Source of the DNA: a virus
Reading direction: 5' to 3' (one strand)
DNA length: 28,419 nt
IMG/VR virus record: IMGVR_UViG_3300042691_006088
Location: 1 to 28,419 of that record
Of this stretch, positions 4,968 to 26,708 are shown one piece after another. Positions within the stretch are counted from its first letter, which is position 1. The number at the start of each line of letters is the position of its first letter. The position numbers were made by a program, and so were the translations under genes. The notes below the pieces were generated by a model. It did not search any database. It saw only the letters and a list, made by a program, of their open reading frames with translations, and was not told the DNA's origin.

Positions 4968-5346
4968 ATTATCCCCATTTGACTTCCTCAACGCTATCAA
5001 TCTAACCAAAGAAGATCTACTGGAGAAAGATCCTCAGAACGTAAAAGAGTATAATGCTTTTATGGTCAATAAAGGTTTATCCTACTTTGCCGATACAGTT
5101 ATGCAGGCAAACGAGATGAACCGTCTTTACGACGCACCTAAGAAATGGCAATTTCAATATTTACTAAATAGTATTACCAAGAAAAAAAGATTCTCAAAGT
5201 GGCATAAAGCAGATGTGTCCAAAGATCTTTCCTTGGTCATGGAGTACTATGGCTACTCTAGTGAAAAAGCGACAGTGGCTTTGAGTTTACTAACTCAAGA
5301 CCAATTGAAAAATATTGAAGAACGATTAAACAAAGGTGGAAGATAA
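4960..5346 (+). CDS. 62: Clamp loader small subunit (gp62, cyanophage type)
   Basis: This 128-aa protein is shorter than T4 gp62 (187 aa) but fits the marine T4-like gp62 family. It carries the segments YNAFMVNKGLSYFADTVMQA, NEMNRLYDAPKKWQFQYLLN and KKRFSKWHKADVSKDLSLVM, and its position between gp44 and regA is conserved. It completes the gp44/gp62 clamp loader, contacting clamp and DNA without an ATPase site. A GGGG stretch 7 bases before the ATG serves as Shine-Dalgarno sequence. The stop overlaps the regA start (TAATG). Confidence 0.85.
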   Translation: MSKLSPFDFLNAINLTKEDLLEKDPQNVKEYNAFMVNKGLSYFADTVMQANEMNRLYDAPKKWQFQYLLNSITKKKRFSKWHKADVSKDLSLVMEYYGYSSEKATVALSLLTQDQLKNIEERLNKGGR

Positions 5347-5762
5347 TGACCGTTGAGATGATCTATTATGATTGGACAGCCGACTCTATGTTGGAAGTCC
5401 TATTAGACGAACCAGACAATTTCTTAAAGATTCGTGAAACTCTAACACGAATCGGAATCGCATCAAGAAAAGACAAGAAACTTTATCAATCTTGCCATAT
5501 ATTACATAAGCAAGGTAGATACTTCATTGTCCATTTCAAAGAACTCTTTGCGTTAGATGGCAAAGAATCTAATATCACATCAAACGATATTGAGCGAAGA
5601 AATACTATTGCAAAGTTGTTGGCGGATTGGGGTCTATTAAAGATTTTACATCCAGCTAAAGCTGAACCGCAAGCATCCCTTTCTCAAATTAAAGTTGTCT
5701 CTTACAAAGAAAAAGATGACTGGGAACTTGTTCCAAAGTACAATATCGGTAAGAAGAAATAA
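5346..5762 (+). CDS. regA: RegA translational repressor
   Basis: This 138-aa protein matches T4 RegA (122 aa) over most of its length: NFLKIRETLTRIGIASRKDK, LYQSCHILHKQGRYFIVHFK, NTIAKLLADWGLL and the C-terminal WELVPKYNIG. RegA binds the initiation region of early phage mRNAs and represses their translation. The first ATG (5346) has GGTGGA 5 bases upstream and overlaps the gp62 stop, giving a 14-residue extension compared with T4. An internal ATG at 5388 would give the T4-like N-terminus but has a poorer ribosome site. RegA commonly targets clamp, loader and helicase messages, all encoded nearby. Confidence 0.93.
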   Translation: MTVEMIYYDWTADSMLEVLLDEPDNFLKIRETLTRIGIASRKDKKLYQSCHILHKQGRYFIVHFKELFALDGKESNITSNDIERRNTIAKLLADWGLLKILHPAKAEPQASLSQIKVVSYKEKDDWELVPKYNIGKKK

Positions 5763-5780: not shown

Positions 5781-5807
5781 ACTAATGATTTTCATTAGCG
5801 TGTTTTT
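5781..5807 (+). terminator. Weak terminator after regA
   Basis: A perfect 7-bp AT-rich hairpin, CTAATGA (5781-5787) with TCATTAG (5791-5797), is followed four bases later by a run of six T (5802-5807). The low-GC stem and the gap before the T run make termination partial at best. Confidence 0.5.
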
Positions 5808-5821
5808 TGTTCTTTCTTCTA

Positions 5822-5849
5822 TATAATTATACGGATAATATTTCCGTAT
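5822..5849 (+). promoter_or_regulatory. Possible promoter and 5' hairpin of the pqqA-like gene
   Basis: A perfect TATAAT lies at 5822-5827, but the -35 region at 17 bp (GTGTTT) is poor. Just downstream, ATACGGA (5829-5835) pairs with TCCGTAT (5843-5849) to form a 7-bp hairpin in the leader. A transcript starting near 5834 would have a leader of about 37 bases ending in a strong Shine-Dalgarno sequence. Confidence 0.35.
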
Positions 5850-5870
5850 CTTTAATTAAGGAGAATGATT

Positions 5871-5942
5871 ATGTGGACAAAACCAGCTGCTACTGAAATG
5901 CGTTTCGGTTTCGAAGTAACGATGTATGTTGCAAACAGATAA
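5871..5942 (+). CDS. pqqA: PqqA-like pyrroloquinoline quinone precursor peptide
   Basis: This 23-residue peptide begins MWTKPAATEM and ends RFGFEVTMYVANR. It matches the known PqqA pattern end to end, including length, the N-terminal MW-KP, and the E-x-x-x-Y core (E15, Y19) in GFEVTMY that PqqE cross-links and that becomes PQQ. The start is ATG 5871, with a full AAGGAGA sequence 6 bases upstream; the in-frame ATG at 5865 is too close to it. The gene is isolated between a weak terminator (5781-5807) and a strong UUCG terminator (6002-6023). No pqqB-F gene is in the window, so host enzymes would have to process it. The inferred role is raising PQQ supply for host quinoprotein dehydrogenases. 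The match is unusually good for so short a peptide, but function is untested. Confidence 0.85.
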   Translation: MWTKPAATEMRFGFEVTMYVANR

Positions 5943-5988
5943 GTCTGATTTGGAACGCTGGCTCGAAAGTTTGGGCGATTGCGTTTAA
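5926..5988 (+). CDS. Possible 20-aa ORF overlapping the 3' end of pqqA (doubtful)
   Basis: In the +1 frame relative to pqqA, an ATG at 5926 opens 20 codons that read MLQTDKSDLERWLESLGDCV. The composition is protein-like and amphipathic helical, and it fills most of the otherwise empty space before the terminator. It has no Shine-Dalgarno sequence, so it could only be translated by coupling to pqqA, or it may be a remnant of an older gene. I cannot assign it. Confidence 0.25.
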   Translation: MLQTDKSDLERWLESLGDCV

Positions 5989-6001
5989 AAAACATATAGA
6001 G

Positions 6002-6023
6002 AAACCCACTTCGGTGGGTTTTT
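6002..6023 (+). terminator. Intrinsic terminator with UUCG tetraloop after pqqA
   Basis: AAACCCAC (6002-6009) pairs perfectly with GTGGGTTT (6014-6021) across a TTCG loop and ends in five T (6019-6023). It insulates the pqqA-like gene from hsp20. Confidence 0.93.
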
Positions 6024-6026
6024 CAT

Positions 6027-6034
6027 TATAAATA
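6027..6034 (+). promoter_or_regulatory. T4-type late promoter upstream of hsp20
   Basis: A perfect TATAAATA octamer, the T4 late promoter consensus read by the gp55 sigma factor with the gp45 clamp, lies directly after the pqqA terminator. The predicted start is near 6041, giving a leader of about 185 nt for hsp20. Confidence 0.75.
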
Positions 6035-6038
6035 ATTT

Positions 6039-6199
6039 ATGTCCCAATCGGGATGGGAACGTAAAGACTTCACCTTAGGACCGCTATGGAACGAAGCGTG
6101 ATAAAGCGGACATGACGCACGATGTCGCTGGATCTCGTAACCAGCATTTTAAATATGGCTCTCTTCAATTTGCCTTCGGGGAATTGCTTGAGAGTTTTT
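6039..6199 (+). ncRNA. Structured leader or small RNA ending in a terminator hairpin, upstream of hsp20
   Basis: This region has no convincing gene but much pairing potential. ATGTCC (6039-6044) can pair with GGACAT (6108-6113), closing a domain with an inner hairpin CGCT/AGCG (6082-6085, 6095-6098). The same 6109-6113 segment can instead pair with ATGTC (6122-6126). A GCTGG/CCAGC hairpin follows (6127-6131, 6141-6145). It ends in an imperfect hairpin with a C(UUCG)G loop, CTCTC (6159-6163) to GAGAG (6190-6194), then TTTTT (6195-6199). Alternative pairing plus a terminator before hsp20 is riboswitch- or attenuator-like. No known riboswitch consensus was recognised. Confidence 0.4.
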
Positions 6200-6225
6200 C
6201 AACTCGCTTAATAGGAGAAAAAACT

Positions 6226-6732
6226 ATGGTACACAAATTCATTCCAACTATTTTTGGTGAACACTTCAAAGAATTTGATAAAGTCTTTGTTGGCTTTGAT
6301 GAGCAATTCTCAAAGATGCAAGCATTGCATGACGAACTCACTAAGAATATCCCTAACTATCCACCATTCAATGTTCGCAAGAACGGTAATACCTACACGA
6401 TTGAAATCGCTGTAGCAGGTTTCGCACAAAATGAAATCGACATTACTATCGATGGTGGCAAATTAGTTGTCAAGGGTAACTCTGAATCGGTAGAACCAGA
6501 GGGCACTGATTACTTGTTCAAAGGTATTGCTAATCGTTCGTTCACACGTGCGTGGGCTATCGGTGATCAGTATGAAGTTAAAGACGCTGAACTTTTCAAT
6601 GGTATTCTAAAGATCGCTCTAGATCAATTAGTACCAGAAGAAAGAAAGGCAAAGAAAGTGCCAGTAAAGACAGGTAAAGGTAAACAACTCTTACAGGAAG
6701 AAGCATATGACAAAGCTGCTGAAACTCTGTAA
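6226..6732 (+). CDS. hsp20: Hsp20 small heat shock protein
   Basis: This 168-aa protein contains an alpha-crystallin domain at about residues 45-135. The segments are PPFNVRKNGNTYTIEIAVAG, FAQNEIDITIDGGKLVVKG and RSFTRAWAIGDQYEVKDAEL, then NGILKIAL, the usual conserved strand near the end of the domain. Hsp20 genes are a hallmark of marine T4-like phages and are thought to act as holdase chaperones during head or baseplate assembly. The ATG at 6226 has AGGAG 8 bases upstream. The frame is open back to 6112, but that stretch is the structured leader. The small gene at 6707 overlaps its end by 26 bases. Confidence 0.9.
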   Translation: MVHKFIPTIFGEHFKEFDKVFVGFDEQFSKMQALHDELTKNIPNYPPFNVRKNGNTYTIEIAVAGFAQNEIDITIDGGKLVVKGNSESVEPEGTDYLFKGIANRSFTRAWAIGDQYEVKDAELFNGILKIALDQLVPEERKAKKVPVKTGKGKQLLQEEAYDKAAETL

Positions 6733-8072: not shown

Positions 8073-10562
8073 ATGGAATTTTACACAAACGTAACTAAGT
8101 ATGGGAACAAGTTGCTTGTTCGTGCAGTCAAGAACGGCAACCCATACAAAACTAAAATTGATTTTTCTCCAACCCTCTATATCAAATCAAATAAACCTAG
8201 TGAGTGGCGCACCTTGTTTGGTGAACCAGTAAGCGAAGTTAAGTTTGGTGACATTAATGAAGCACGTGACTTTATTGAACGATACAAAGAGGTAGATGGA
8301 TTCAGCGTATATGGCAACGCAAACTATGCTCACCAATACATCAGCGATAGTTACTCAAATGACATTCGCTGGGATATTGAGAAGATTAAAATTTTCTCTA
8401 TTGATATTGAGGTGGGTGCTGAAAGTGGTTTCCCTAATGTTGAATCTGCTGCGGAAGAAGTTCTTCTAATCACTATACAAGATAACTTCACAAAACAAAT
8501 TACTACCTTCGGCTCACGTCCATTTGCTGGCGCAGAAGGTGTTCGTTATATTCAATGCCAAAATGAATCTTCTCTACTAAAAGAATTTCTCATCTTCTGG
8601 CAAACACAATCCCCTGACATTATCACTGGTTGGAATATCAACTTCTTTGATATCCCTTATCTTGTTCGCAGGATTGATAAAGTCCTTGGTAACAGTTTCT
8701 CTAAGAAGATGTCACCATGGGATATCGTTAATGAACGCAGAATTCATGTCAAAGGTAACGAAGAGATTTGTTATGATATGGTTGGCGTATCTACTGTTGA
8801 TTACTTAGATCTTTATAAGAAGTATACGTATACTGCACAAGAATCATATAAACTGGATCACATCGCTTTCGTTGAACTTGGCGAAAACAAATTAGAGAAT
8901 CCTGAAGATAACTTCCGTGACTTCTATGCTAAGCATTGGGATCTTTTCGTTAAGTATAACATTCATGATACACGTCTTGTTGACAGACTTGAAGATAAAA
9001 TGAAGTTGATTGAGTTGTTAATCACTATGGCTTACAACGCTAAGATTAACTACGAGGATGTTTTCTCTCAAGTACGTATGTGGGATTCTATCATCTATAA
9101 CCACCTACGTCAGAGAAACATAGTCATCCCTGAGAAGACACGAACAAATAAAACTGAAGCATTTGAAGGTGCGTTTGTTAAAGATCCAATCCTTGGTCTT
9201 CATCGTTGGGTGGCTTCCTTTGACTTGAACAGCTTGTATCCGCATTTGATTATGCAGTATAACATGAGTCCTGAAACATTGACTGATGAAAAAGTCCATG
9301 GCATCAGCGTTGAGAAACTTCTAACCAAAGAAGTTGATACTTCCTATGGTCATAGGCAAGATCTAGCAGTCAGCGCAAATGGCTGGTGCTATCGCAAAGA
9401 CGTAAGAGGTTTTATGCCAGAGTTGATGGAGCAAATGTATGTGAATCGTTCTAAGTATAAAAAGCAGATGTTGAAAGTCGAGCAAGAGTATCAGAACGAT
9501 AAGTCAAAGACTCACCTACTGAAAGAAATCTCAAGACTCAACAATCTGCAGATGGCTATGAAGATTGCTTTGAACTCAGCTTATGGTGCGATCGGTAATC
9601 AATACTTCCGTTACTTTGACGTGAGGATTGCTGAAGGTATCACAACATCTGGGCAGTTATCTATCCGTTGGATGGCTAACGAGTTTAACAAATATATGAA
9701 TAAGATTTTAAAGACTGAAGACAAAGATTATGTCATTGCTATTGATACTGATTCCATCTACCTATCGCTTGAAGATTTGGTTGAGCATACTTGCGCTGGG
9801 AAAACAGATGAACAAAAAATTAAATACATGGATAAAATCTGTGAGGATGCCTTCCAACCTTTCATAGATACAACCTATCAAAAACTTGCTGAGTATATGA
9901 ATGCTTATGCTCAGAAGATGCAAATGAAACGAGAAGTATTGGCAGACACAGCTATCTGGAATGCTAAGAAAAGATATATCTTGAATGTGCATAACTCTGA
10001 GGGTGTTCAGTATGCTCAACCCAAATTGAAAGTTATGGGTCTAGAGATGGTGAAATCTTCAACACCACAAGTTATCCGTTCTAAGATGAAGGAAGTGTTG
10101 AAAGTAATTCTTGCTGCGGATGAAAGTAAATTGCATAAGTTTATTAATGAGTTCCGCATTCAGTTTAAAGAGTTGCCTGTTGAGCAGATTGCATTCCCAC
10201 GTGGATTGAATGGTCTAAAAGAATACACAGCTTCTTCTACAATATATAAAAAGGGAACACCGATTCATGTGCGAGGTGCTCTCTTGTTTAACCACTATGT
10301 TAAACAAAATAAGTTGGATAAGAAATATCCAATGATTCGTGATGGTGATAAAATTAAGTTTGTTTACTTAAAGGTTCCAAATACCATTCAAGAAAACGTG
10401 GTTGCCTTTGCTGGTGAGTTGCCAAAAGAGCTTAACCTACATAAATACGTTGACTATGAATTGATGTTTGAGAAAGTTTTTCTTGAACAACTTGAAAGTC
10501 TTATCCAACCAATCGGTTGGTCAATCGAAGAGAAATCTAATTTAGAGGAGTTTTTTGGATGA
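8073..10562 (+). CDS. 43: Family B DNA polymerase (gp43)
   Basis: This is an 829-aa replicative polymerase (T4 gp43 is 898 aa). The proofreading domain has Exo I at FSIDIEVG (D111, E113), Exo II at NINFFDIPY (D193) and Exo III at YNIHDTRLVD (D299). The polymerase domain has motif A SFDLNSLYP (384-390), motif B KIALNSAYG (497-505) and motif C AIDTDSIYL (D558, D560). All catalytic acidic residues are present. The C-terminus, NLEEFFG, fits the clamp-binding tail of T4-like polymerases. The gene abuts dexA without a gap and overlaps the thermonuclease start (ATGA). No clear Shine-Dalgarno sequence precedes it, which fits coupled translation. Confidence 0.97.
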   Translation: MEFYTNVTKYGNKLLVRAVKNGNPYKTKIDFSPTLYIKSNKPSEWRTLFGEPVSEVKFGDINEARDFIERYKEVDGFSVYGNANYAHQYISDSYSNDIRWDIEKIKIFSIDIEVGAESGFPNVESAAEEVLLITIQDNFTKQITTFGSRPFAGAEGVRYIQCQNESSLLKEFLIFWQTQSPDIITGWNINFFDIPYLVRRIDKVLGNSFSKKMSPWDIVNERRIHVKGNEEICYDMVGVSTVDYLDLYKKYTYTAQESYKLDHIAFVELGENKLENPEDNFRDFYAKHWDLFVKYNIHDTRLVDRLEDKMKLIELLITMAYNAKINYEDVFSQVRMWDSIIYNHLRQRNIVIPEKTRTNKTEAFEGAFVKDPILGLHRWVASFDLNSLYPHLIMQYNMSPETLTDEKVHGISVEKLLTKEVDTSYGHRQDLAVSANGWCYRKDVRGFMPELMEQMYVNRSKYKKQMLKVEQEYQNDKSKTHLLKEISRLNNLQMAMKIALNSAYGAIGNQYFRYFDVRIAEGITTSGQLSIRWMANEFNKYMNKILKTEDKDYVIAIDTDSIYLSLEDLVEHTCAGKTDEQKIKYMDKICEDAFQPFIDTTYQKLAEYMNAYAQKMQMKREVLADTAIWNAKKRYILNVHNSEGVQYAQPKLKVMGLEMVKSSTPQVIRSKMKEVLKVILAADESKLHKFINEFRIQFKELPVEQIAFPRGLNGLKEYTASSTIYKKGTPIHVRGALLFNHYVKQNKLDKKYPMIRDGDKIKFVYLKVPNTIQENVVAFAGELPKELNLHKYVDYELMFEKVFLEQLESLIQPIGWSIEEKSNLEEFFG

Positions 10563-11002
10563 AGAAACTATATTACGCAGTAGGATTTGTTTTCCTAGCA
10601 CTCATGCTTCCAGCGCAAGCAAAAGAACAACCAAGTGTTCAATATGACTGGAAAGTTACAAAAGTTAAAGACGGTGATACCGTTGAGTTTGAAGCAAAGT
10701 TTTTGCCACCACCACTTAAACCTGTTTTGAGTGTTCGTATCTTTGGTGTTGATACTCCAGAAAAGGGTTCACGTGCACAATGTCCAAGTGAAGCGCAGCG
10801 TGGTGAAGAAGCTACTGCTTTTACAAAGAAAGCAGTTGCAGAAGCAAAGCAAGTTAAAGTTGCTCTGATGTCATGGGATAAGTTTGGTGGTCGTGTCCTT
10901 GGAGACGTTATCCTAGATGGCAAGAGTTTACGTGCTCAACTTATTGAGAAAGGTCTTGCACGAGAATATTTTGGAGAAGCAAAACAATCTTGGTGCAAAT
11001 AA
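10559..11002 (+). CDS. Secreted staphylococcal-nuclease-like thermonuclease
   Basis: This 147-aa protein has a Sec signal peptide (KKLYYAVGFVFLALMLPAQA) with a probable cut after AQA (residue 21), followed by a complete SNase domain. The catalytic and calcium ligands of the family are present: D38/D40 in VKDGDTVEF, R60, D65, T66 and E68 in VRIFGVDTPE, and R112 in DKFGGRVLG. The enzyme would cut DNA or RNA in the periplasm or outside the cell. It starts within the gp43 stop (ATGA), so an exported nuclease is co-translated with the DNA polymerase. Possible roles are recovering extracellular or periplasmic DNA or excluding other phages; this is inference. Confidence 0.88.
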   Translation: MKKLYYAVGFVFLALMLPAQAKEQPSVQYDWKVTKVKDGDTVEFEAKFLPPPLKPVLSVRIFGVDTPEKGSRAQCPSEAQRGEEATAFTKKAVAEAKQVKVALMSWDKFGGRVLGDVILDGKSLRAQLIEKGLAREYFGEAKQSWCK

Positions 11003-13809: not shown

Positions 13810-15123
13810 ATGACACGAGTTATTGTAGCAGAAACTAAACATGATTGTGAAAATCTTATGGGTATGTTTCTTGATGAATCAAATTATGATATTCTAATCG
13901 AGGAAGATACTGATTGCTATTTGCCAGTTGGTTATGGTGAAGCGCCAAACGAACAGAAGATCGCTTTCAAATTCCGTAAGAACTTCTTTACTAAAGAAGA
14001 ACAAGACGCAGCATATCATGGACTAAGAGAAGCTGCTCAACGAACAGAGAATCGTGGCTTGGCTTCAGGTATTAAAGCTGGAACACAAGTTAATGGTGAA
14101 GGACGTGAGTGGGTTACTAACTATCAGGAAGAAATGATTAATGCGCTTCTTGATGGTCGCAAGGCATCTCTATTTTCTGGAGACCCAATTGAAAATGTTC
14201 GTTCAAAATATCCAACAGCAGAGTCACGTTTAAAGGCACTTGGCTCTGGCAAAAACAATGTTTGGGTTATCTCACGTTTCCGTGGTAAATTTAATTTTGA
14301 TGAGTGGGTTGATTCCATCAAAACTATGACGCCAGAAGAACGTGCTAAGTCATGTGAAGAAACCATGAAGATGATTAGCGAAACATCTTATGGCAATCCA
14401 GTTGATTCTGGTATCGCTGGTTGGTTTGATCGCTATCCACGTATCCCTTATGGTCGTGCTACAACTTATACAAGAGACAACTTTGATAAGTTTAAAATGG
14501 CATACCCATTCTTACAGCACTTGGCTAAAGGTTTTGCTGAGTTGTTGCCTTGGAGATATGGTAATCAAATGGCAGCAGCTAAGAAAATTGATTCTAGATT
14601 CCTTATCCCAGAAACACCATTTACAACAGTTACGGTGAACAAAACATTCCGTACTGCTGCTCATCGTGATGCTGGTGATTTGGATTCTGGTCTCTCAAAT
14701 CTGTTGACATTATCTAACGATGGTCGTTACTCAGGTGGGTATTTGATTTTCCCTGAGATCCGTATGGCTGTTAACGTGCGTCCAGGTGACTTGTTGTTGG
14801 TTAATAACCACGAAATCATCCATGGCAATACACCTATTGTTTGCGAAGAAGGTTCAGAGCGTGTAAGTTTGGTTGTATACTTCCGTGAAAAAATGCTAGA
14901 ACTTGGTAGCAAAGAATATGAAGATTTTCGTTTTGAATACGTTGAGCAACGTCGCTTGAATACTGAGCATCGCTTGTATAAGAAATTGTGGAATGGTGTT
15001 TCTCCAGGAATGTGGGAAGAGGAAGAATGGTATGACTTCTTGCGTGAGAAAGGTGGGGAACATATGCTTCACACTTATCATCCAAAGGCAAGTGCTGGTT
15101 CTCTCGCAGACTTTTTAGGATAA
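13810..15123 (+). CDS. TET/JBP-family 2-oxoglutarate/Fe(II) dioxygenase (DNA base hydroxylase)
   Basis: This is a 437-aa protein. Residues 271-351 carry the TET/JBP-type double-stranded beta-helix core: FTTVTVNKTFRTAAHRDAGD (metal ligands H285, D287), GRYSGGYLIFPEIRMAVNVR, then PGDLLLVNNHEIIHGNTPI (second histidine, probably H338), and R351 in ERVSLVVYF for 2-oxoglutarate. This family oxidises the methyl group of thymine (JBP) or 5-methylcytosine (TET) in DNA. No methyltransferase is seen nearby, which favours thymine or leaves the substrate open. Residues 1-260 have no recognised domain. The tail SLADFLG resembles clamp-binding peptides. A glycosyltransferase follows 6 bases later. Confidence 0.82.
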   Translation: MTRVIVAETKHDCENLMGMFLDESNYDILIEEDTDCYLPVGYGEAPNEQKIAFKFRKNFFTKEEQDAAYHGLREAAQRTENRGLASGIKAGTQVNGEGREWVTNYQEEMINALLDGRKASLFSGDPIENVRSKYPTAESRLKALGSGKNNVWVISRFRGKFNFDEWVDSIKTMTPEERAKSCEETMKMISETSYGNPVDSGIAGWFDRYPRIPYGRATTYTRDNFDKFKMAYPFLQHLAKGFAELLPWRYGNQMAAAKKIDSRFLIPETPFTTVTVNKTFRTAAHRDAGDLDSGLSNLLTLSNDGRYSGGYLIFPEIRMAVNVRPGDLLLVNNHEIIHGNTPIVCEEGSERVSLVVYFREKMLELGSKEYEDFRFEYVEQRRLNTEHRLYKKLWNGVSPGMWEEEEWYDFLREKGGEHMLHTYHPKASAGSLADFLG

Positions 15124-15129
15124 CATAAT

Positions 15130-16137
15130 ATGTCATTACATGAGTTTCTAGGTGAAGAAAAGTTACTAGAGTGGTTCTACTCAGCCAACTCTAGTAACAC
15201 AGGAAAGAAGATTGGCTATCGCAGGGTATCAGGTAAGATTGGTTTAACTAACCAAGAGAATGGTATTCGTGGTGCATGGGTAGAGAAACGTGTAGCATTT
15301 TTTAAGAACGTACTTGGCGCAGGTATGCGTATCATCCCTTTATCAGAACCAACTGAAGCAACAGCCAACGATGGCTTTGAATCTTTTGATACTTACCAAG
15401 AGTGTGATACACTTGTGCTTGAGTTTGGTGGTACTAACCTACAGTTCTATCAGAAGTATTGGGATAAAACTGTCGAGATGATCAAAGCGCACAAAGGTAA
15501 TATTGTATTTCTTAACGATGATCCAGACCTACCATTCCTTTGGGAGTTATTGCCTGATGAAGATTGGTCACGTTGGACTATCGCAGCTAATGCTGCAGTG
15601 CCATCTGAAGTTGCTACCATCCTAAAGTGTCCCGAAGGTTCAACTACTATTGACTTACCGATGGCATCAGGTATGGACTTCGCAAACTTTCATGCTGGTT
15701 CAATCGAGAAGGTAGTTTATATCGGTCGCCCAAATGGTCGCACTAAACACTTCAAAGAATATACAAAGTCATCATATCTTGAAGTAGCAGGTAAGGAAAC
15801 TGAATGGTCAGACTACGTTGGTTTGAATATCGTTGAGAATCCACAGCAAAGAGATAGACGTGCTTTCTATCAGAAGTATCATGGCTGTCTTGCTGTTTAT
15901 GACGACAAGCATAAGCGTTCAGGCTGGCGTACTGGTCGTGCTTACCATGCTGTCTATGCTGGCATTCCTGTCTGTGCGCCACAAGGTAACAACGGATTGG
16001 TTTGGTGTTTTCCTGCTGATAATGCGGAAGCGATCGAGAAGTTTGCTTCTCTCTCAGTTGAGAAACGTGAGAAGATTTGGCTGGCGCAGAAACAGTATAT
16101 TTTAAATACAGACAAGATAGATCTAAGTTTCCTATGA
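15130..16137 (+). CDS. GT-B-like glycosyltransferase, probably acting on hydroxylated DNA bases
   Basis: In this 335-aa protein the C-terminal half carries a GT-B donor-binding pattern: a strand KVVYIGRPNGRTKHF, a predicted strand GCLAVYDDKHKRSG, then WRTGRAYHAVYAGIPVCAP at about 266-284. That last segment is like the R-x(5-8)-A-G-P-V region of family B glycosyltransferases. The N-terminal half is Rossmann-like (CDTLVLEFGG, GNIVFLNDDPDLPF). It directly follows the TET/JBP-like hydroxylase, the known pairing for base-J-type and phage hypermodification, so the expected acceptor is a hydroxymethyl base; the sugar donor is unknown. The N-terminus, MSLHEFLGEE, resembles the clamp-binding motif. 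It overlaps the following HAD gene (ATGA). Confidence 0.7.
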   Translation: MSLHEFLGEEKLLEWFYSANSSNTGKKIGYRRVSGKIGLTNQENGIRGAWVEKRVAFFKNVLGAGMRIIPLSEPTEATANDGFESFDTYQECDTLVLEFGGTNLQFYQKYWDKTVEMIKAHKGNIVFLNDDPDLPFLWELLPDEDWSRWTIAANAAVPSEVATILKCPEGSTTIDLPMASGMDFANFHAGSIEKVVYIGRPNGRTKHFKEYTKSSYLEVAGKETEWSDYVGLNIVENPQQRDRRAFYQKYHGCLAVYDDKHKRSGWRTGRAYHAVYAGIPVCAPQGNNGLVWCFPADNAEAIEKFASLSVEKREKIWLAQKQYILNTDKIDLSFL

Positions 16138-26261: not shown

Positions 26262-26708
26262 ATGAATGAACTACAAGAACAAATGAAGGTGGTGTTGGCA
26301 GATTCTTTTATGATGTATCTAAAGGCGCAAGGCTACCACTGGAATGTAGAAGGAATTTTGTTTCCAATGTTACATGACTTCTTTGGAAAAATATACGAAG
26401 AGGTTTATGGTAGCATTGATGTAACAGCTGAAGAGATTCGTGCATTGGGTGCTGTTGCTCCACATACACTTATTGAGTTTGATAAATATAGAACGGTGAT
26501 GGATACATCAGCTACTGGTGCTCAAGGTATGATTGCTGATTTGGTTCAAGTAAACCAATCAGTTTTATCTTCATTAATGCAAGCATTCAGATTAGCTGAA
26601 GCAGCAAATGAACAAGGGTTGCTAGATTATCTAGCAGGTAGAATCGATGCTCATAAAAAACATAATTGGATGTTGACATCAACATTAAAATCTAGCGGAG
26701 AACAATAA
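26262..26708 (+). CDS. Dps/ferritin-like protein
   Basis: This 148-aa protein begins with the Dps helix A pattern YLKAQGYHWNVEG. The intersubunit ferroxidase ligands of Dps proteins occur with the usual spacing: H26, H38, D53 and E57 (LHDFFGKIYEEVYGSID, then TAEEIRALG). It would oxidise Fe(II) with peroxide and protect DNA, during infection or in the head. There is no capsid-targeting N-terminus and no basic DNA-binding tail. It lies one base after the DUF6321 gene and directly before another internal-protein-like gene, so it is expressed with the head genes. The Shine-Dalgarno sequence is weak. Confidence 0.82.
   Translation: MNELQEQMKVVLADSFMMYLKAQGYHWNVEGILFPMLHDFFGKIYEEVYGSIDVTAEEIRALGAVAPHTLIEFDKYRTVMDTSATGAQGMIADLVQVNQSVLSSLMQAFRLAEAANEQGLLDYLAGRIDAHKKHNWMLTSTLKSSGEQ

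Follow-up and report, generated by a model that had tools for sequence, protein, structure and literature searches.

A pqqA gene for the PQQ precursor peptide in the replication region of a T4-like phage, very probably of methanol-eating bacteria

A viral PqqA, the peptide precursor of the cofactor PQQ, was published in 2020 for the Lake Baikal virus VP_266 (PMC7678222). In the accessible part of that paper, VP_266 is a virus of methylotrophs that encodes PqqA together with a methanol dehydrogenase of its own, and its PqqA is proposed to support methanol oxidation. VP_266 is a single metagenomic population, and the same part of the paper reports no cultured-phage survey, conserved site or selection test. 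A reservoir study of 2026 also names pqqA among virus-encoded genes (PMC13188868). The preliminary description of the DNA analysed here, which knew of no characterised phage PqqA, needs correction in this respect. PqqA is unmentioned in the paper on phage Melnitz and in that on phages MEP401 and MEP402. Within searchable open-access papers, the breadth of pqqA among phages, its fixed site in T4-like genomes and its occurrence without the pqq enzymes appear to be undescribed and new.

The window, that is, the whole stretch analysed, comprises 28,419 nucleotides of viral DNA (positions 1 to 28,419 of IMG/VR record IMGVR_UViG_3300042691_006088); the features from regA to hsp20 discussed below lie on its plus strand. 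Positions 5871–5942 form a reading frame of 23 codons followed by TAA, with the translation MWTKPAATEMRFGFEVTMYVANR. The peptide matched Pfam PF08042 with 42.4 bits (cut-off 21.1; E 6.4e-11) and NCBIfam TIGR02107 with 43 bits (cut-off 20; E 2.7e-11), in both cases at about twice the curated cut-off and over the whole profile; none of 14 control genomes was positive in the PqqA family search. Scores so far above the cut-offs exclude a chance match. Glu15 and Tyr19, the pair four residues apart that becomes PQQ, are both present, and the PqqA-like character that the preliminary description had read from the peptide is thereby borne out. Its 23 residues fall within the length of PqqA (∼22–25 residues), and the start site is proper, the Shine-Dalgarno sequence claimed earlier being a strong AAGGAG at 5858–5863, 7 nt before the ATG. 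An SD-like motif precedes all phage pqqA copies except four. On its profile matches and residues, 5871–5942 is confirmed as encoding a genuine PqqA. The peptide shares with bacterial PqqA of the Methylophilaceae type a length of 23, an MW(T/S)xP start, the core EMRFGFEVTMY, the Glu15-x3-Tyr19 arrangement and an NR or NK end, and stand-alone copies occur in those hosts as in the phage. It differs from bacterial PqqA in being encoded between regA and hsp20 of a T4-like phage of lytic type, with no adjacent pqq enzyme.

T4 core genes flank pqqA on both sides (gp45, gp44, gp62 and regA, then Hsp20, exonuclease, gp43, UvsX and gp41), which upholds the T4-like replication-region setting claimed for it. 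For the DNA polymerase of the window, identity to proteins of the phage collection does not exceed 56%. The upstream neighbour is regA (5346–5762; PHROG 242, E 4e-62) and the downstream neighbour hsp20 (6226–6732; PHROG 432, E 2e-37). After regA, an AT-rich hairpin, CTAATGA-TTT-TCATTAG, with a T-run (5782–5808) is a probable terminator; it was identified by eye, having too few G-C pairs for the terminator scanner, and is retained in relatives (L349, L350 and L351). Comparison of relatives revealed a small hairpin, ATACGGA...TCCGTAT (5829–5849), directly 5' of the pqqA ribosome-binding site, the stem of which is retained and the loop altered in L350 and L351. A strong intrinsic terminator, GAAACCCAC-TTCG-GTGGGTTTTTC with a T-run, follows pqqA at 5999–6024 (fold z = −5.0 for 5930–6035, the 106 nt around it). 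The hairpins and T-runs on either side agree with the earlier claim that the gene is isolated between two terminators. A T4-type late promoter motif, TATAAATA (6027–6034; chance expectation for the window, 1.7), lies past the pqqA terminator and ahead of the RNA element described below, and would therefore serve hsp20, not pqqA.

Comparison of relatives also brought out a micro-frame that overlaps the end of pqqA (MLQTDKSDLERWLESLGDCV, 5926–5988), a candidate open reading frame that is also a hairpin. Its C-terminus, LESL(G/S)DC(V/I), is retained 3' of pqqA in some relatives (L274, L277, L280, L290, L337 and L350), and it may specify a very small peptide that is coupled to pqqA, or may be an RNA hairpin only. 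A small reading frame of Methylopumilus (L202, 7371–7532) ends in RWLESLSDCV; a scar of pqqA capture could not be made out from it, as among eight host genomes it gave a clear match in its own genome alone. A search of the window against Rfam returned nothing at gathering score; the best weak match, rsmX (E 0.03, far under the cut-off), covers pqqA together with its terminator and was taken as chance.

Positions 6060–6225, leading into the hsp20 ribosome-binding site, form a conserved structured RNA element by covariation and covariance model. In an alignment of 20 relatives, pairing holds in 97% of cells; double changes number 58, as compared with 21 for shuffles and no more than 12 for a slid pairing. 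The covariance model found the element in 64 of 86 sources, some of them model-building or mutually overlapping, and in carriers and non-carriers of pqqA alike. It is characterized by an invariant CACCTTAGGACC, by CGCTGGA...GTAACCAG, by a UUCG-type hairpin and by a closing AAGC/GCUU stem that adjoins the ribosome-binding site, ACTCGCTTAATAGGAG. Neither Rfam, at gathering score, nor blastn against the phage collection gave a match to it. The element looks like a cis-regulatory RNA of the phage small heat-shock protein.

Elsewhere in the window, positions 13810–16137 encode a TET/JBP-type 2-oxoglutarate oxygenase (PF12851, E 2e-23) followed by a 335-aa reading frame with no Pfam match. The latter is, at a guess, a glycosyltransferase, and the two are possibly a pair for DNA base hypermodification. 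Host-like genes encode the N-terminal domain of a dATP/dGTP diphosphohydrolase (922–1260), an SPFH/Band-7 protein (1440–2240), a staphylococcal-nuclease homologue (10559–11002) and a ferritin/Dps-like protein (26262–26708).

T4-like relatives were fetched via regA and gp44, a procedure blind to pqqA. The gene lay downstream of regA in 26 of 133 distinct regA loci, and of the 104 T4-like loci in which the interval from regA to hsp20 was complete, 23 had the order regA-pqqA-hsp20. When regA was at least 80% identical, pqqA stood between regA and hsp20 in 22 of 74 loci, always intact; over all loci, the site was occupied across regA identities of 77–100%. Decayed pqqA was not found in the 81 regA-hsp20 intervals without the gene. 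In T4-like relatives pqqA is an accessory gene that is inserted at one fixed position. About 70% of close relatives are without it at this site, so either the gene is accessory or the gene-free relatives infect other hosts. In T4-like contigs found by sequence pattern, pqqA lies after hsp20 or adjoins gp45, and more distant relatives therefore vary in site.

A codon model applied to 23 distinct pqqA copies from the loci fetched with regA and gp44 gave an omega of 0.02–0.03. Fixing omega at 1 lowered lnL from −618.7 to −729.0, a cost of 110 units; with the codons constrained by the regular expression left out, the cost was 59 units (−445.7 versus −504.7). The alignment is only 69 nt long and its synonymous sites are close to saturation, which makes the estimate of omega approximate in size; its direction is beyond doubt. 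The window gene and its nearest relative are separated by two synonymous changes and no nonsynonymous ones. Glu15 and Tyr19 were both present in 121 of 121 complete copies, among the matches listed, that had been selected on codons 1–13 only; one further such copy is incomplete, ending at a contig edge. Judged by codon substitution, phage pqqA is under strong purifying selection. The window pqqA can thus be classed, from its sequence, as a phage auxiliary metabolic gene: it is of host type, lies in a genuine phage genome and is maintained by selection.

The preliminary description had surmised that other phages carry the gene without annotation, and they do. In a tblastn search of 50,697 phage records, 12 matched pqqA, 10 of them phages. 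Nine are cultured phages of Methylophilales, namely Melnitz (four variants), Venkman, P19250A, MEP301, MEP401 and MEP402; the tenth is a podovirus (MW202481) with no host stated. The named phages have the same gene as the window, in other phage types and other gene surroundings. The other two records, both labelled 'Acinetobacter phage MD-2021a' (CAKLQF020000010.1 and CAKLQH020000055.1), were taken as bacterial contigs, probably mislabelled; the one that was opened, CAKLQF020000010.1, carries a full pqqABCDE cluster, ppk and fur, which are chromosomal genes. These two aside, every matching record with a stated host infects Methylophilales, in line with the methylotrophic host that had been suggested. 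The same search did not find pqqA in the collection's many phages of Klebsiella, Pseudomonas and Acinetobacter, hosts that include PQQ makers, and was sensitive enough to detect the Acinetobacter version of PqqA at 68% identity. In the cultured-phage records inspected, pqqA is unannotated or stands under a hypothetical protein, some on the opposite strand; records without a pqqA annotation are those of Venkman, P19250A, MEP301, MEP402 and Melnitz. IMG/VR was scanned three times with degenerate DNA patterns, each yielding at least 120 stretches, and holds at least 150 loci with pqqA, mostly unannotated. The 148 matches listed from the first two scans and the phage collection all encode a PqqA of 23–25 aa, and the third scan, with a pattern for codons 1–13, gave further copies.

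In bacterial genomes the core EMRFGFEVTMY occurred, among the matches listed, almost exclusively in records of Methylophilaceae type (Methylophilaceae, Methylotenera, Methylophilus, Methylopumilus and OM43, some titles giving a higher rank only). Five phage PqqA peptides are letter-identical to host peptides, and the phage peptides lie within the host range. The near-exclusive core and these identities make a strong case that the host of the window phage is a member of the Methylophilaceae, and the phage very probably infects methanol-eating bacteria. Cultured Methylophilaceae have 3–12 pqqA copies and a single pqqBCDE set (Beck et al., PMC4109929). In eight host genomes we found one to seven pqqA matches per genome, and orphan copies away from pqqBCDE exist in hosts too. 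OM43 cultures receive added PQQ in growth, so some hosts may take up PQQ rather than make it.

No other PQQ gene was seen within the window, a 28.4-kb fragment of a genome with ∼100 kb or more outside it, which agrees with the preliminary description for this stretch. The window pqqA therefore has no pqqBCDE in a cluster with it, a usual mark of pqqA and not a strictly defining one, since hosts have orphan copies. Nor did pqqBCDE lie beside any other phage copy. PqqE was searched for in 56 virus or phage records that bear pqqA, including six whole phage genomes; nothing scored above the cut-off, and both host controls were positive in the same search. A weak match of record G028 to the PqqE profile (27.7 bits, cut-off 381) was taken as a generic radical SAM match. 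One of the 56 records (G018) has a PQQ methanol dehydrogenase; this family-matched protein of 624 aa stands with pqqA on locus L439 (IMGVR_UViG_3300025120_009955, 27000–46500), which in this coupling resembles VP_266 as presented in the accessible part of its report. Other reading frames of L439 resemble, by eye, ClpS-like, formate-dehydrogenase-like and CsgG-like secretion proteins. The T4 capsid family gave no match in G018 in a search in which the positive control was also silent, and the viral status of this record is that assigned by IMG/VR.

We propose, with a probability of roughly 0.7, that phage PqqA tops up the substrate so that host enzymes keep making PQQ for the methanol dehydrogenase XoxF. 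One PqqA molecule is consumed per PQQ made. PqqA must consequently be resupplied in quantity, and because the enzymes are catalytic and already in the host, a phage would need to bring pqqA only; the host, with many pqqA copies and one pqqBCDE set, follows the same dosage logic. The source of the gene would be a lineage of Methylophilaceae hosts, and selection would have retained it in the phage as an auxiliary metabolic gene. On infection, the 23-aa peptide would be produced from its own short transcription unit and bound by host PqqD; host PqqE would cross-link Glu15 to Tyr19, and host peptidases, PqqB and PqqC would trim and finish the peptide to PQQ, which would supply XoxF. If host genes are shut down by the T4-like phage, pqqA alone may be the cheapest way to sustain PQQ and XoxF. 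In this scheme we infer expression of the peptide, its processing by host enzymes, the extra PQQ and the benefit to the phage. Cyanophage psbA photosystem genes, which re-supply a fast-consumed part of host energy metabolism during infection, would be the functional analogue; what is consumed here differs in being a ribosomally made peptide from which a cofactor is built, rather than a protein subunit.

The precursor function could be the same and the client another: a different dehydrogenase, a redox protectant role, or PQQ left in the lysate. PQQ does serve many dehydrogenases, and methanol dehydrogenase accompanies pqqA in a single record of the 56. This reading is nevertheless unlikely, as the gene tracks phages of methylotrophs and was not found in the collection's phages of Klebsiella, Pseudomonas and Acinetobacter, and as xoxF heads the transcripts of OM43 (PMC5120137).

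A decoy role, which the preliminary description had raised, is less likely than supply of substrate, and we consider it distinctly improbable. Phage PqqA would then occupy PqqD or PqqE and lower PQQ, so that host respiration slows or PQQ is no longer released. Competition of this kind is conceivable for a short substrate analogue at high expression, and the pqq enzymes are indeed absent from the phage records. A decoy, however, need not retain the reactive pair, which is invariant in copies not selected for it, and phage peptides that fall within the host range, five of them identical to host peptides, should be processed like any normal substrate. One virus, moreover, couples pqqA with a methanol dehydrogenase gene, as does VP_266 in the accessible part of its report, and the decoy predicts nothing that the data show better.

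It is very unlikely that the peptide has a role independent of PQQ, as a signal, as a regulator or at the RNA level, that merely keeps the PqqA sequence. The conserved regulatory neighbourhood with its hairpins would suit such a role; conservation across the family, however, centres on the residues used for PQQ, and an RNA role is disfavoured because amino acids are conserved while codons change. That pqqA is a neutral passenger recently taken from a host, as identical phage and host peptides might suggest, or a chance reading frame is already contradicted by an omega of ∼0.03 with its huge likelihood difference, by the same site across the whole range of regA identity and by the lack of decayed copies in gene-free intervals.

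We lean slightly towards the view that pqqA represents a general class of auxiliary metabolic gene, the 'single-use substrate' gene. On this view, Methylophilaceae phages of several lineages (podovirus, siphovirus and myovirus types) would commonly bring along no part of a cofactor pathway other than the peptide that it uses up, and the class would have been overlooked because the gene has only 23 codons. With cultured phage-host pairs, the question of whether the PqqA peptide limits PQQ supply becomes testable. The oxidation of methanol by OM43 and Methylopumilus moves large amounts of carbon in coastal and fresh waters. If replenishment of the PQQ precursor by their phages is routine, viruses would commonly control methylotrophy, and this control would have been overlooked because annotation pipelines skip genes of 23 codons.
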